Below, one piece after another: positions 29,777 through 34,710 of a stretch of 64,000 bases of DNA. The stretch is from an uncultured Bacteroidota bacterium (GTDB lineage: Bacteria > Bacteroidota > Bacteroidia > 2-12-FULL-35-15), in NCBI GenBank assembly GCA_903926385.1, contig CAIYIS010000007.1, positions 1 to 64,000 on the forward strand, in the 5' to 3' direction. The translations under genes and the position numbers were made by a program. Numbering within the stretch: position 1 is the stretch's first letter; the number at the start of each line of letters is the position of its first letter. Under the pieces are notes generated by a model. That model saw only the letters and a list, made by a program, of their open reading frames with translations. It did not search any database and was not told where the DNA came from.

Positions 29777-30091
29777 ATTACTTCAATTTATATGAATCCC
29801 CTGTTATTAATATTCTACATCAAAAATAATAAACCACCTTTTTTATTTTTCTGCTCGTTTTATCAAGTTATTAAATGGGGGTTGTTAAAAACTGAGGGCC
29901 CCAGGGTAGGCATTAGGGGATGAATAGGAGGGAGAATAAAGTTGGATTAACGCAATGCGTTTTTTTAGATTAGCCTTGATAATCAATGATATTTTTTTAA
30001 TTTTGTTGCGTGGATGTAATTGTTATCCGTAATAATGAGAACGCGCGTAACGAACTTTATCGCAACGAATGAAACTTAAACAAACAACAAT
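29777..30091. other. 315-bp intergenic region before the nuclease module
   Basis: No gene seen. From 30021 it includes the left inverted repeat of the nuclease module and the 11-bp word AACGAATGAAA at 30064. The rest is A/T-rich without clear structure. Confidence 0.6.
30021..30038 (+). repeat. Left inverted repeat of the nuclease module
   Basis: TGTTATCCGTAATAATGA. The reverse complement of 31401-31418 reads TGTTATCCGTAGTAATTC; 15 of the first 16 bases agree. The pair brackets exactly the two genes 30092-31395. Confidence 0.7.
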
Positions 30092-30997
30092 ATGACACAA
30101 GACATCGGAACACAGTACCAAAAAGACAACACAATAGACAAGACAGGTTTTAAAACAAAAGCCCGACTTCATCAATCAAAATACAGAGCGAATGTTTTGC
30201 AAGTTGATTTTAAAGATTATGGTAATCGGCTAACAGTTGAAGATGGACTTGCAGGTAAGAACTTTTATAACGGGTTTAATGTTTTGGAGGCAGTTAACAA
30301 ACGTTACCCAGGTTACAACAAAGGACTTTATTCTGATATGCTTCGCAGTGAACATATACCTTTCAATATTTTTGTTCCACTTGACAAAGACAAAAAATAT
30401 TGCGCTAAAATATTTAACAAGTTTTTAGGTGGAATTATTAAAACAGTTGATGATATTAAGATTGAATACGCACCAACAATTACTACTGAAAAGAAATATC
30501 TTGCCGACAGAACATCGTTTGACGCATACATTGAATACACAAGCAATGACGGAGCAAAAGGAATTATTGGAATTGAGGTGAAATATACGGAACACGAATA
30601 TGCACTAAAACCAAATTCAAAAGAAGAGGCAGACATTAAAAACCCTAATTCACTTTACAACTCTGTAACAGACAAATCAAAACTTTATATTGATGGTGCT
30701 TTAGAACAACTGAAAACAGACCTATTCCGACAAATATGGAGAAATCATATTCTTGGAGAAAGTATTTTACAACACGATAATACATTTAAACATTTTACTT
30801 CATTAACTCTTTTTCCTTTAGGGAACACGCATTTCATAGACACAAGCAAAAAATACATTGAACTTTTAAAATCTAATAACAACAAATTTATTCCTGTTAC
30901 TTATGAAGATTTTATTTCAATCGCAAAGGAAAATTGTCCGAATGAAGAATTTAAAAGTTGGTTAGAATATTTAATAGCACGATACATTGTTAAATAA
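30092..30997 (+). CDS. PGN_0703-type putative restriction endonuclease (PD-(D/E)XK)
   Basis: 301 residues. It closely follows the PGN_0703 family of predicted restriction-type nucleases: ARLHQSKYRANVLQVDF, NFYNGFNVLEAVNKRYP, YSDMLRSEHIPFNIFVPL, then the nuclease core FDAYIEY (Asp near 143) and GIIGIEVKYTEHEY (Glu-x-Lys near 161-163), then FRQIWRNHILGESI and HFTSLTLFPLGNTHF. The D...ExK pattern is that of the PD-(D/E)XK fold. No methyltransferase is adjacent, so if it is a defence nuclease it must avoid self-DNA in another way. The next gene overlaps its stop codon. The pair is flanked by inverted repeats, suggesting acquisition as a unit. Confidence 0.88.
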   Translation: MTQDIGTQYQKDNTIDKTGFKTKARLHQSKYRANVLQVDFKDYGNRLTVEDGLAGKNFYNGFNVLEAVNKRYPGYNKGLYSDMLRSEHIPFNIFVPLDKDKKYCAKIFNKFLGGIIKTVDDIKIEYAPTITTEKKYLADRTSFDAYIEYTSNDGAKGIIGIEVKYTEHEYALKPNSKEEADIKNPNSLYNSVTDKSKLYIDGALEQLKTDLFRQIWRNHILGESILQHDNTFKHFTSLTLFPLGNTHFIDTSKKYIELLKSNNNKFIPVTYEDFISIAKENCPNEEFKSWLEYLIARYIVK

Positions 30998-31395
30998 TGG
31001 ACAACAACATAGACATACAAGCGGACTTCATTACATTTAAAAACCAAATCATAAACAAGTTTGGCGAACAGTATTTTGACCAAGCAGAAATATTCTTTGT
31101 GCGTGCAATGAAACAAGCAGAACAAGGATTAATACATAGTGCCATTGCAGACGGAAAGTTTGCATTAGACCTTACGAACTATTCAAGCGACCAGACAGGT
31201 ATTCAATATCTCATTGGCTTTCTTTCACAGCTACATTGCGACATTGGACAAATAAATAAATCAAAAGCATATTACGAACTCGGTGTAAAACTACTTGACC
31301 CGAAAGACGAAGACGACAAGCGATTATACAAAAATCTTAAAGAACTTATAGACGGTGAAAGCTGGAAAGGCAGTATAGACGGCACGAACGAATGA
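30997..31395 (+). CDS. Small helical TPR-like partner of the nuclease
   Basis: 132 residues, all-helical by composition. Two TPR-like hairpins are visible (FDQAEIFFVRAMKQAEQGLIHSAIADG and the pair around GQINKSKAYYELGVKLLD). It shares one base with the nuclease stop codon (TAATG), so translation is coupled and the products are likely to act together. Possible roles are an inhibitor or immunity partner, or a specificity adaptor; the sequence does not decide. No family name is recognised. Confidence 0.75.
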   Translation: MDNNIDIQADFITFKNQIINKFGEQYFDQAEIFFVRAMKQAEQGLIHSAIADGKFALDLTNYSSDQTGIQYLIGFLSQLHCDIGQINKSKAYYELGVKLLDPKDEDDKRLYKNLKELIDGESWKGSIDGTNE

Positions 31396-31979
31396 AAAAA
31401 GAATTACTACGGATAACATAAGATTCCTCTGTAAATTAATGGGAGCGAATTGGTGAGTATAGGGCAAAGAAAATCCGTGTCACTGGTTAGTGATTTTTAA
31501 AATAGTTCGGTTGCCACTTCTGATTATAGTTTTTGTTATTACTGTATACCTGCCAGATTTGAAGTCATATAAAAAATGAAGATTCCTCTGCGAGTTGTGT
31601 TGTATTGCTACATCACGCTCAAGTATGTGTTCTCTGTTAATCCCTCCTGTTGGGCGTAGCACACCGCTACGTCCTATTTAACCGGCATCTTGCCTAATAC
31701 TAAAAGCGTAAAAAAGAAGTCCAGAGGACTTGTTAAATGCAACGTAAGGAAAAACTGCCCTTAACGGGGCGGTAACTTGAAACCAGAAACTTTCCAACAT
31801 TAAACTATCCTTTTCATAGAATATGATTGTTAGCATGTATCTAACTTCTTTGCTCAAATCTTAAATTAATTTGTAGATTTGTAAATGATTTGATGATTGT
31901 GGTGTATGGCCACAGAAAAAGAAACACAAGCTAACGGCCTTGTAATTGCAGTAAAAGAATGTAGAATGAATTAGAAGGC
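31396..31979. other. 584-bp gene-free stretch after the nuclease module
   Basis: Contains the right inverted repeat (31401-31418), a 12-bp direct repeat AAGATTCCTCTG at 31420 and 31579, and a hairpin at 31653-31674 (GGCGTAGC, loop ACACC, GCTACGTC). The only open frame (60 codons, minus strand 31480-31662) shows no gene features. A TAGATTTG -7-like element at 31874-31881 could serve the gene at 31980. It reads like repeat debris around an insertion. Confidence 0.6.
31401..31418 (-). repeat. Right inverted repeat of the nuclease module
   Basis: GAATTACTACGGATAACA, the inverted partner of 30021-30038. Just inside it, AACGAATGAAA at 31387-31397 repeats directly the 11-bp word at 30064-30074. Confidence 0.7.
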
Positions 31980-33215
31980 ATGAAAAAATATCTGCTCCTC
32001 ATTGTTGCGCTCCTCATAATTTTGGGAATTGTTTTTTCCCATAATAAGTCCGTTCATTTCGAAACCACCTCCTTTGCCGAAGTAAAAGCATTAGCCAAAA
32101 AAGAAAACAAACCCATATTTATTACCGTGTGTACTCAATGGTGTGCGGCCTGTAAAAAGATGAAAAATACTCTTTATACAGAAGATGTTGTGGCCGATTT
32201 TTGTAATTCTAAATTTATCAATTACGAACTCGATGCCACCAAGGGTGTGGATAAAGAATTCGAAAAAACCGGTGAAATATCCTGTTACCCTAACCTGATG
32301 TTTATGGATACAGAGGGTAAAATAATTCACCGGGCATGCGGAGCTCCTGTAAATACAGAGGAAATGATGAAACTACTCAATGATGTTTTTATTCCCGAAA
32401 AAACATTTGGATACTACTATTATCAATATGATAAAAAGATAAAAGATGCATCGTTTCTGTTTGGTTACCTTCCTGTTCTCAAAAAAAGCAACATGCCTTA
32501 TGAGCATGTAGTAACCGACTATTTTAAAGCACAAACTGACCAGCAACTTACTACCAGAGGAAATTGGGAAGCAATAAAAAGTAATTGTACCGATTTTAAA
32601 AGCAGAGAATTTATTTATGTAGTAAATAATCTGGACACATACAAAAAGCTGTACACCCCCGACTCTGTAAAAATTGCCATGGTTAACCTGATAGACCAAA
32701 TTATAATATGCAAAATGGTTCAAAGCAACAAACATGTAAGCGGTGCGGATTTGGAGTTTTTTAGAGGTTTATTGCATTCGTTGGATAAAGATATTGAGGA
32801 ACAAGCATTGTTTATGACAGACTTGTATTATTTACACAAATCAAAACAACGAAAAGAAATGTTTGAGTTGATAAAAGAGAGAGGAGATAAGTATTTCGAA
32901 AAAATACCAGATGAGGAAATTGTTGACGCTATTACTGAGTATTGTGATGATACGGTTTGTCTGAAGTTGGCAGCCAATCATTACAAAATTAGAATGAGTA
33001 AATATGTGCCCGACACTAAAGATGAAAAGAAGATGAGATTTATGGCAGGCGTAAGTAAAGATTACACCACTGTTTTAATAAAACTAAATAGAAAAAATGA
33101 AGCGAAGAAGGCAATCGAAAATTCTATTGCCGGTTATAATTTGAATTTAGATGATAAGTTGAAATATGATGAGGCCATTAGGCTCCGCGATAAAATAAAT
33201 AGTATGCCTGATTAA
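31980..33215 (+). CDS. Thioredoxin-fold protein, CAAC active site
   Basis: 411 residues with an N-terminal signal or anchor (KKYLLLIVALLIILGIVFS). A thioredoxin-like domain spans about 30-140: PIFITVCTQWCAACKKMKNTL has the redox pair CxxC (CAAC), and CYPNLMFMD carries the cis-Pro region. An additional Cys precedes that proline (SCYPN). The remaining 270 residues are helical, with no known family. Its paralog starts 247 bp downstream. Such proteins act in periplasmic disulfide reduction or folding; the partner is unknown. Confidence 0.82.
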   Translation: MKKYLLLIVALLIILGIVFSHNKSVHFETTSFAEVKALAKKENKPIFITVCTQWCAACKKMKNTLYTEDVVADFCNSKFINYELDATKGVDKEFEKTGEISCYPNLMFMDTEGKIIHRACGAPVNTEEMMKLLNDVFIPEKTFGYYYYQYDKKIKDASFLFGYLPVLKKSNMPYEHVVTDYFKAQTDQQLTTRGNWEAIKSNCTDFKSREFIYVVNNLDTYKKLYTPDSVKIAMVNLIDQIIICKMVQSNKHVSGADLEFFRGLLHSLDKDIEEQALFMTDLYYLHKSKQRKEMFELIKERGDKYFEKIPDEEIVDAITEYCDDTVCLKLAANHYKIRMSKYVPDTKDEKKMRFMAGVSKDYTTVLIKLNRKNEAKKAIENSIAGYNLNLDDKLKYDEAIRLRDKINSMPD

Positions 33216-33462: not shown

Positions 33463-34710
33463 ATGAATAAATTACGGAGCGCCCTATATCTCATCACTGC
33501 TTTTGTTGCTTGTAATACTAGTGTGTTTTCTCAAAACCGCGCAGTACGTTTTGAAACAACTTCGTTTGACTTGGTAAAAGCAAAAGCTATAAAGGAAAAC
33601 AAAATTATTTTTATAACCATTTGCACCAACTGGTGCGCACCCTGCAAATGGATGAAAAAAACACTTTATACTAACGACACAGTAGCCGATTATTGTAATG
33701 CTAAATTTATAAATTTTGAAGTTGATGCTACTTTGGGATTGAACAAAGAGTTTACACGCACAGGCGAAGTTGAGTGTTTTCCTAATCTGATGTTTATGGA
33801 TGCCGATGGTAAAGTTGTTCACCGTTTCTGTGGAGCCCCTCAAACAGCCCAAGAGATGATTGATATGCTCAGCAAAGTTTTTGATACCCCAAATACTTTC
33901 GGATACTATTATTACTCCTACAAATTGAATAAAAACAATCCTAAGTTTTTGATGGATTATATTCAAGTTTTGCAAAAGACACAATTGCCTTATGAAAAAA
34001 TATTAGCTGAATATTTCAAAACCCAGAAAGACGAACAGCTCACTACGCGTGTCAATTGGGAAGTGCTAAAGGCAAATTGCCAGGATAACCGGAGTAATGA
34101 GTTTAATTATTTTATCCGTCACCAGGCAGTTTACAAAAAGTTATATACAGACGATTCTGTAAACACTGCCATGGTTGATATTGTGGAACGAATTATTCAG
34201 GAATTACTGGTATTTAATAATTATGTGATAAAGGAGTCAGAATTTCTGTATTTCTGCAATCAGATTGCTTTACTCGATAGTCCGGTGAAAGAACAGGAAT
34301 TATTTATGGCACGTGTGTTTTATTATCGGAAAACACATAATCGCAAAGCAATGTTTGATTTAATACATAACGAAGGGAAACAGTATTTTGAGAAAATACG
34401 GGATGAAGACATTGCTTCTTCTGTTGCTGAATATGCTGAGGATACAGTTTGTTTGCGCCTTGCATCAGCTCATTTCCGTATGTTGCTAACAAGAATGGCT
34501 CTTTATGATAATAACGAATCTAACATTAGTTACATTGCTAATTTAAATAAGAAGTATGCTCAGGTGATGTATAAATTAAATGATAAAAAAGAAGCATTAA
34601 GGGCTGTTCAATTATCGCTTTCCGGATTTTCTAAAGACGATACAAATAAGGAGAGGTATAACGAAACAGAAGAGTTGTATAAGAAAATACTTAAGATGCC
34701 TGATGAGTAA
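33463..34710 (+). CDS. Thioredoxin-fold protein, CAPC active site (paralog)
   Basis: 415 residues with a signal peptide ending near FSQ (SLYLITAFVACNTSVFSQ-like region). Clear paralog of the upstream gene over the whole length. Its redox motif is WCAPCKWMKKTLYT (CAPC), again with Cys-Phe-Pro at the cis-Pro loop (ECFPNLMFMD). The helical C-terminal domain is conserved between the two copies (TTRVNWEVLKANCQDN, EDTVCLRLASAHF). Divergence of the CxxC dipeptide implies different redox potentials (inference from thioredoxin-family knowledge). Confidence 0.83.
   Translation: MNKLRSALYLITAFVACNTSVFSQNRAVRFETTSFDLVKAKAIKENKIIFITICTNWCAPCKWMKKTLYTNDTVADYCNAKFINFEVDATLGLNKEFTRTGEVECFPNLMFMDADGKVVHRFCGAPQTAQEMIDMLSKVFDTPNTFGYYYYSYKLNKNNPKFLMDYIQVLQKTQLPYEKILAEYFKTQKDEQLTTRVNWEVLKANCQDNRSNEFNYFIRHQAVYKKLYTDDSVNTAMVDIVERIIQELLVFNNYVIKESEFLYFCNQIALLDSPVKEQELFMARVFYYRKTHNRKAMFDLIHNEGKQYFEKIRDEDIASSVAEYAEDTVCLRLASAHFRMLLTRMALYDNNESNISYIANLNKKYAQVMYKLNDKKEALRAVQLSLSGFSKDDTNKERYNETEELYKKILKMPDE

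Follow-up and report, generated by a model that had tools for sequence, protein, structure and literature searches.

In the 64-kb stretch of DNA analysed here (the window), two genes stand between a pair of inverted repeats. The first (30092-30997, forward strand) encodes a 301-aa PD-(D/E)XK nuclease that matched PDDEXK_13 (PF20796) with E=3.3e-63 and 214.2 bits against a cut-off of 27, and REase-ARP (PF22558) with E=2.2e-28 and a score far above the cut-off. The D...EVK motif of PDDEXK_13 nucleases was read by eye in its translation (FDAYIEY...IGIEVKY). The second gene (30997-31395, forward strand) encodes a partner protein of 132 aa. Its start overlaps the nuclease stop by one base (TAATG, 30995-30999), and the two genes are translationally coupled. 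The partner matched no curated Pfam or NCBIfam family, and the PADLOC models returned no family for either protein. A first-pass annotation of this DNA had named a nuclease of this type and a TPR-like partner: the nuclease was recovered as PDDEXK_13, whereas no TPR family matched the partner, although its sequence looks helical. As that annotation had described, the ORFs between the ends are exactly these two coupled genes, with no transposase and no cognate methyltransferase that would make the pair a restriction-modification system.

The inverted repeat reported at first pass was also borne out. The sequence TGTTATCCGTAATAAT at 30021-30036 recurs as its reverse complement at 31403-31418, with 15 of 16 bases identical, far above chance. 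A framing role had been given as well to an 11-bp direct repeat, AACGAATGAAA, which is present at 30064, inside the conserved cassette leader described below, and at 31387, where it overlaps the stop codon of the partner. However, in 2.7 kb of AT-rich DNA chance alone is estimated to give about one such pair of 11-mers, and no matching repeat was seen at the 3' ends of other cassettes, so it was rejected both as an element end and as a target-site duplication.

Cassette ends in the window and in relatives

When the 5' end of the element was compared with its reverse-complemented 3' end, positions 1-10 matched, position 11 differed (A/G), positions 12-15 matched and none did beyond. The start was placed at the GTTA at 30022 and the end at the TAAC at 31417, and the element so bounded (30022-31417, forward strand) reads GTTATCCGT ... 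ACGGATAAC, its 3' end forming an R'' box at 31403-31417 (forward strand, ATTACTACGGATAAC). The rule applied to find further ends was a GTTA and the next five bases matched, an A/G difference at position 11, the following four bases matched, and ends lying 0.3-4 kb apart. The full rule is satisfied once in the 64-kb window (30022/31417), against 0.015 occurrences expected per strand from Markov resamplings. In nearly all of 25 profiled cassettes, one of them the window's, positions 1-9 agree; position 11 is a mismatch in 24 of the 25. The four bases after it agree again, either directly or once a one-base bulge is allowed, after which agreement is at background. The A/G difference of the window ends thus recurs as a constant feature across the system.

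The variable bases of these ends are shared within a cassette. In arrays, a 5' end matches its own 3' end at 5.5 of 6 variable bases and the R'' immediately upstream at 3.0 of 6 (p<5e-5 by permutation for the preference for the own end). Own-end matching of this kind would follow from recombination that cuts within GTT and a cassette that forms a circle. A boundary inside GTT with matching own ends, as in integrons, was accordingly found in the profiled set, to which the window cassette belongs.

When the whole element was used as query, several congeneric genomes proved to carry its first ~65 bases next to other cargo. A model (R1) of this conserved 5' leader (30022-30076, forward strand, GTTATCCGTAATAATGAGAACGCGCGTAACGAACTTTATCGCAACGAATGAAACT; alignments A1 and A2) matched 11 of 36 same-genus genomes, several matches lying on one contig in a single orientation. 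The exact 19-mer TGAGAACGCGCGTAACGAA occurs in nine contigs of the GTDB collection, whose titles all name Bacteroidota MAGs; the viral contigs searched do not contain it. In relatives, about 30 more cassettes, with unrelated cargo, have ends of this pattern. Outside the genus, 7 of 20 fetched regions contain a total of 19 cassettes that obey the rule, located near or downstream of a recombinase and belonging to other genera and families within the class, while the reversed control gave none. Head-to-tail arrays with unrelated cargo were found in L101, L104, L105, L106, L283, L288 and others; the window holds a single cassette and not an array. The cargo of the sister cassettes includes AbiV, a Mrr type IV nuclease, a cellulase, RCC1, trypsin-TPR and beta-propeller genes.

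The first-pass annotation had proposed a cassette moved in trans, with the same ends around other cargo in Bacteroidota. These were found in many genomes and strongly support the proposal, the cassette being of the integron type; the ends are not absent elsewhere and the two genes are not conserved in place in all relatives, the two outcomes that it had named as contrary. The evidence for movement is sequence anatomy throughout, gathered mostly from fragmented MAGs. Three further cassette-bearing contigs of the window's own genome (C59, C25 and C20; L109, L110 and L111) end in a common sequence of ~140 nt that includes a promoter-like TACATTTG; this is probably a repeated leader at which the assembly broke.

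Putative attachment sites at the two junctions

In the sister arrays (L101, L102-L106, L114) the elements are separated by imperfect palindromes, TAAC-AT-AAGATTTATG...CATAAATCTT-TCAAAC-GTTA, in which the AAC/GTT core and the R''-L''...L'-R' order of integron attC sites can be recognized. Their form is that of a hairpin, TAAC-n-stem...stem-(n+4)-GTTA, and this geometry is kept over at least seven unrelated stem sequences; the 3' spacer is 4 nt longer than the 5' spacer in 36 sites versus 5 in a reversed control. As single-stranded DNA, five attC sites folded with z-scores of -4.2 to -9.5. In the T1-type folds a 4-nt bulge lies next to the R stem, and the T1 stems carry a compensatory change from AAGATT/AATCTT to AGGATT/AATCCT.

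At the right end of the window cassette just the R'' and the start of the L'' are left. The R'' is followed at 31418-31431 (forward strand) by the spacer AT and an L''-like AAGATT(CCTCTG), and the L' and R' half is missing. This beginning, TAACATAAGATT, is that of complete attC sites. A complete attC was rejected here because the second half (CAGAGGAATCTT-GTT) was not found in the window or in its own genome and the region formed no hairpin (z=+0.84). One incomplete attC is also below the two or more sites, away from an integrase, by which a CALIN is recognized. The same 142-nt segment lies 3' of three different cassettes of this genome, at 31412-31553 of the window (forward strand) and, 98% identical, at the ends of contigs C83 (1-142) and C41 (18143-18283); it has an attC-like beginning without the second half.

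The left flank (29946-30021, forward strand), which runs into the junction, aligns over 83 nt, with 75% identity (E=5e-9), to the site by which recombinase and first cassette are separated in G026:C42 (L105). It is also identical at 30 of 30 nt to a stretch of G034:C306 that likewise precedes a cassette. Bacteroidota promoters have the consensus TTG-N19-TAnnTTTG, and by eye the flank offers TTG at 29976-29978, a 19-nt spacer and TAATTTTG at 29998-30005. Given the homology to a recombinase-adjacent site and the promoter of Bacteroidota type, the flank is probably an attI site that would drive the cassette, although the similarity could partly be one of promoters, as a 35-nt stretch of it recurs before an ordinary gene in contig C15 of the same genome. 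In relatives such an attI, with a cassette promoter read by eye, stands beside the integrase, and the window site has none. Contig C83 has a site of the G034:C304 type without recombinase, followed by a cassette whose gene is DUF2971-like by eye. In G026:C17, too, a window-type attI site without recombinase is found, with a cassette (L168 1459-2347 / L096 575-1360) carrying a 261-aa gene that is nuclease-like by eye and had no Pfam or PADLOC match.

As for the empty sites in relatives that had been anticipated at first pass, the gene on the right flank has its sole clear ortholog in G034, without a cassette beside it and with unrelated upstream DNA, and no precise empty site was recovered among the relatives. 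Just past the cassette, at 31643-31775, there is a dispersed repeat with more than 10 further copies in the same genome, ~75-81% identical. Two adjacent paralogous thioredoxin-like genes, 48% identical, lie beyond it (31980-33215 and 33463-34710).

From this anatomy, 30022-31417 appears to be one integron-like gene cassette placed at an attI-like site and read from the promoter of the site, a reading to which we assign a probability of about 0.8. In the mechanism that we propose, a tyrosine recombinase of XerA/IntI-like type, devoid of the IntI-specific insert, would join attI to a circular cassette at its folded attC hairpin, and exchange within the common GTTA would place the cassette behind the attI promoter, where that of the window would be stored and expressed. 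No array-type recombinase adjoins the window site and none was found in its own fragmented genome, in which several array pieces lie at contig ends, the arrays having broken the assembly. With the recombinase absent and the right attC incomplete, the cassette probably lies dormant or depends on a recombinase in trans for movement. The same two features would also fit a degenerate relic, that is, an immobile cassette whose genes are kept or are decaying for unrelated reasons. However, neither reading frame is broken, promoter and cassette ends are intact and the nuclease motif is present, and we hold a relic to be possible but short of probable.

Cargo genes

Close relatives of the nuclease were found neither in GTDB contigs nor in viral contigs, and a distant one (27.5% identity) is encoded on a Nocardioides plasmid, close to a DISARM gene. 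The partner was present in 1 of 395 genomes of the phylum, and is therefore accessory; it had no match in viral contigs or in the plasmid collection. Homologs of the partner, 67-75% identical, occur in G022, beside an unrelated ORF, and in G041, from another family, directly after an attC. Alignment-free structure predictions reached a pLDDT of 47 for the nuclease and 32 for the partner, too low for the models to be of use. A literature search whose coverage excluded subscription journals and preprints found no paper on REase-ARP.

The two-gene defence or competition system put forward at first pass is what we, too, infer from the nuclease family and from the defence genes in sister cassettes. 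A role in defence is our best guess for the pair, and the DISARM-adjacent relative adds to its plausibility. The cargo would most likely be a small DNA-degrading defence module whose partner controls the nuclease or recruits it to its target, a proposal that we consider to stand at about even odds. The main rival is a toxin-antitoxin or competition pair, made of the nuclease and an immunity protein or antitoxin, which would mainly keep the cassette in place and not act in phage defence. Integron arrays often hold toxin-antitoxin cassettes, and a small partner coupled in translation to the nuclease would suit such a pair; yet conservation of this partner is strong, and in both G022 and G041 it is found apart from this nuclease, which is unusual for a dedicated antitoxin and leaves this role rather unlikely.

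Array recombinases and relation to known integrons

In G026:C42, G034:C304, G026:C44, G025, G008 and G010 a tyrosine recombinase gene oriented toward the array stands a short distance ahead of the first cassette, and in G652, G502, G466 and G045 a recombinase is likewise followed at once by a first cassette. The distance is within ~200 bp, mostly ~100 bp, in several genomes; in the regions outside the genus it is 100-130 bp in L277, L293, L276 and L283. In many other fetched regions the contig runs out soon after the recombinase, which is what repeats would bring about. The first cassette beside the recombinase of G026:C44 (L043 744-1430) encodes an AbiV-type HEPN protein (PF18728, E=1.8e-13). 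Relatives of the recombinase (E<=1e-45) were found in 147 of 295 Bacteroidia genomes and in 90 of 155 genera. The genomes with arrays appear to carry housekeeping dimer-resolution recombinases as well.

The array recombinases resemble both XerA and IntI (NF040815, TIGR02249) and score 194-228 bits with their closest curated models, where the cut-off of NF040815 is 220. The IntI-specific insert of ~40 residues, described as the domain that defines IntI (PMC9668308), is absent from all those aligned: 64-67 residues separate two catalytic landmarks in the ones measured, against 106 in IntI1 of plasmid R100. In a small tree that included one IntI, on a long branch, the relation of the array recombinases to IntI was not settled.

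An ordinary IntI with the additional domain might have been missed, these patchless recombinases being unrelated neighbours of a canonical integron, and the attC sites, the attI-like site and the boundary anatomy would all fit the classical type; in three class 1 cassettes of plasmid p1658/97, too, the own ends match by eye over ~10-12 nt. Nevertheless, in the 36 genomes of the genus nothing passed the cut-off of the integron integrase model (TIGR02249, 265), with which IntI1, as positive control, scored 508.6 bits, and patchless recombinases repeatedly head the arrays, in other families too, so that a canonical integron seems improbable. Least credible by far is a non-autonomous, MITE-like DNA transposon with 16-bp terminal inverted repeats, a transposase acting in trans and two passenger genes: it would account for inverted ends, for identical ends around other cargo and for the missing transposase, but it was rejected because the junctions showed no target-site duplication, the repeats vary at certain bases among cassettes and match at them within each, unlike fixed transposon ends, and the cassettes form head-to-tail arrays with common attC bodies and adjoining tyrosine recombinases.

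It seems somewhat probable that the Bacteroidia have an integron branch of their own, in which a XerA/IntI-like recombinase without the IntI domain, regarded as indispensable in integron integrases, would capture and shuffle cassettes with 4-nt-bulge attC sites and 9+4 ends. Integrons have been reported as rare in Bacteroidota; with IntegronFinder 2.0 a complete integron was found in Bacteroidetes proper only in Salinibacter, and only In0 before (PMC9024848). If our proposal is correct, this platform would escape integron finders that depend on the IntI domain. Should the array recombinases indeed move the cassettes, the IntI-specific domain would be unneeded for integron-type recombination, with direct bearing on the origin of integrons from Xer recombinases. 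The 9+4 rule also offers a simple way to list cassette cargo across the class, abortive-infection and restriction genes included. In the literature covered, from which subscription journals and preprints were excluded, we found no paper on a patchless integron integrase in Bacteroidota.

Among known systems, the window nuclease belongs with both the PDDEXK_13 (PGN_0703 type) and the REase-ARP nucleases, its partner being without a known family. The cassette recalls CALINs, whose cassettes lie away from any integrase and are thought to be mobilised in trans (PMC12444791), but CALINs have at least two attC sites whereas this is a single cassette at an attI-like site with an incomplete attC. The recombinases share with XerA and XerC-type enzymes (NF040815, 'site-specific tyrosine recombinase/integron integrase') a domain lay-out without the IntI insert; unlike the housekeeping enzymes of dimer resolution, they head variable cassette arrays. 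As in classical integrons (class 1 and the chromosomal ones of Vibrio), the cassettes have AAC...GTT cores and complementary own ends, carry mostly forward ORFs and form head-to-tail arrays in which attC-like hairpins separate neighbours; a tyrosine recombinase heads the array, and the attI-like site contains a cassette promoter. The system departs from them in a recombinase that is without the IntI-specific insert and has a different N-terminal extension, in a recombinase gene that runs toward the array, in the constant 4-nt attC bulge and in the fixed 9 + mismatch + 4 ends, of which only the fixed mismatch and spacing are distinctive and not the extension, since the p1658/97 cassettes also match over 10-12 nt.
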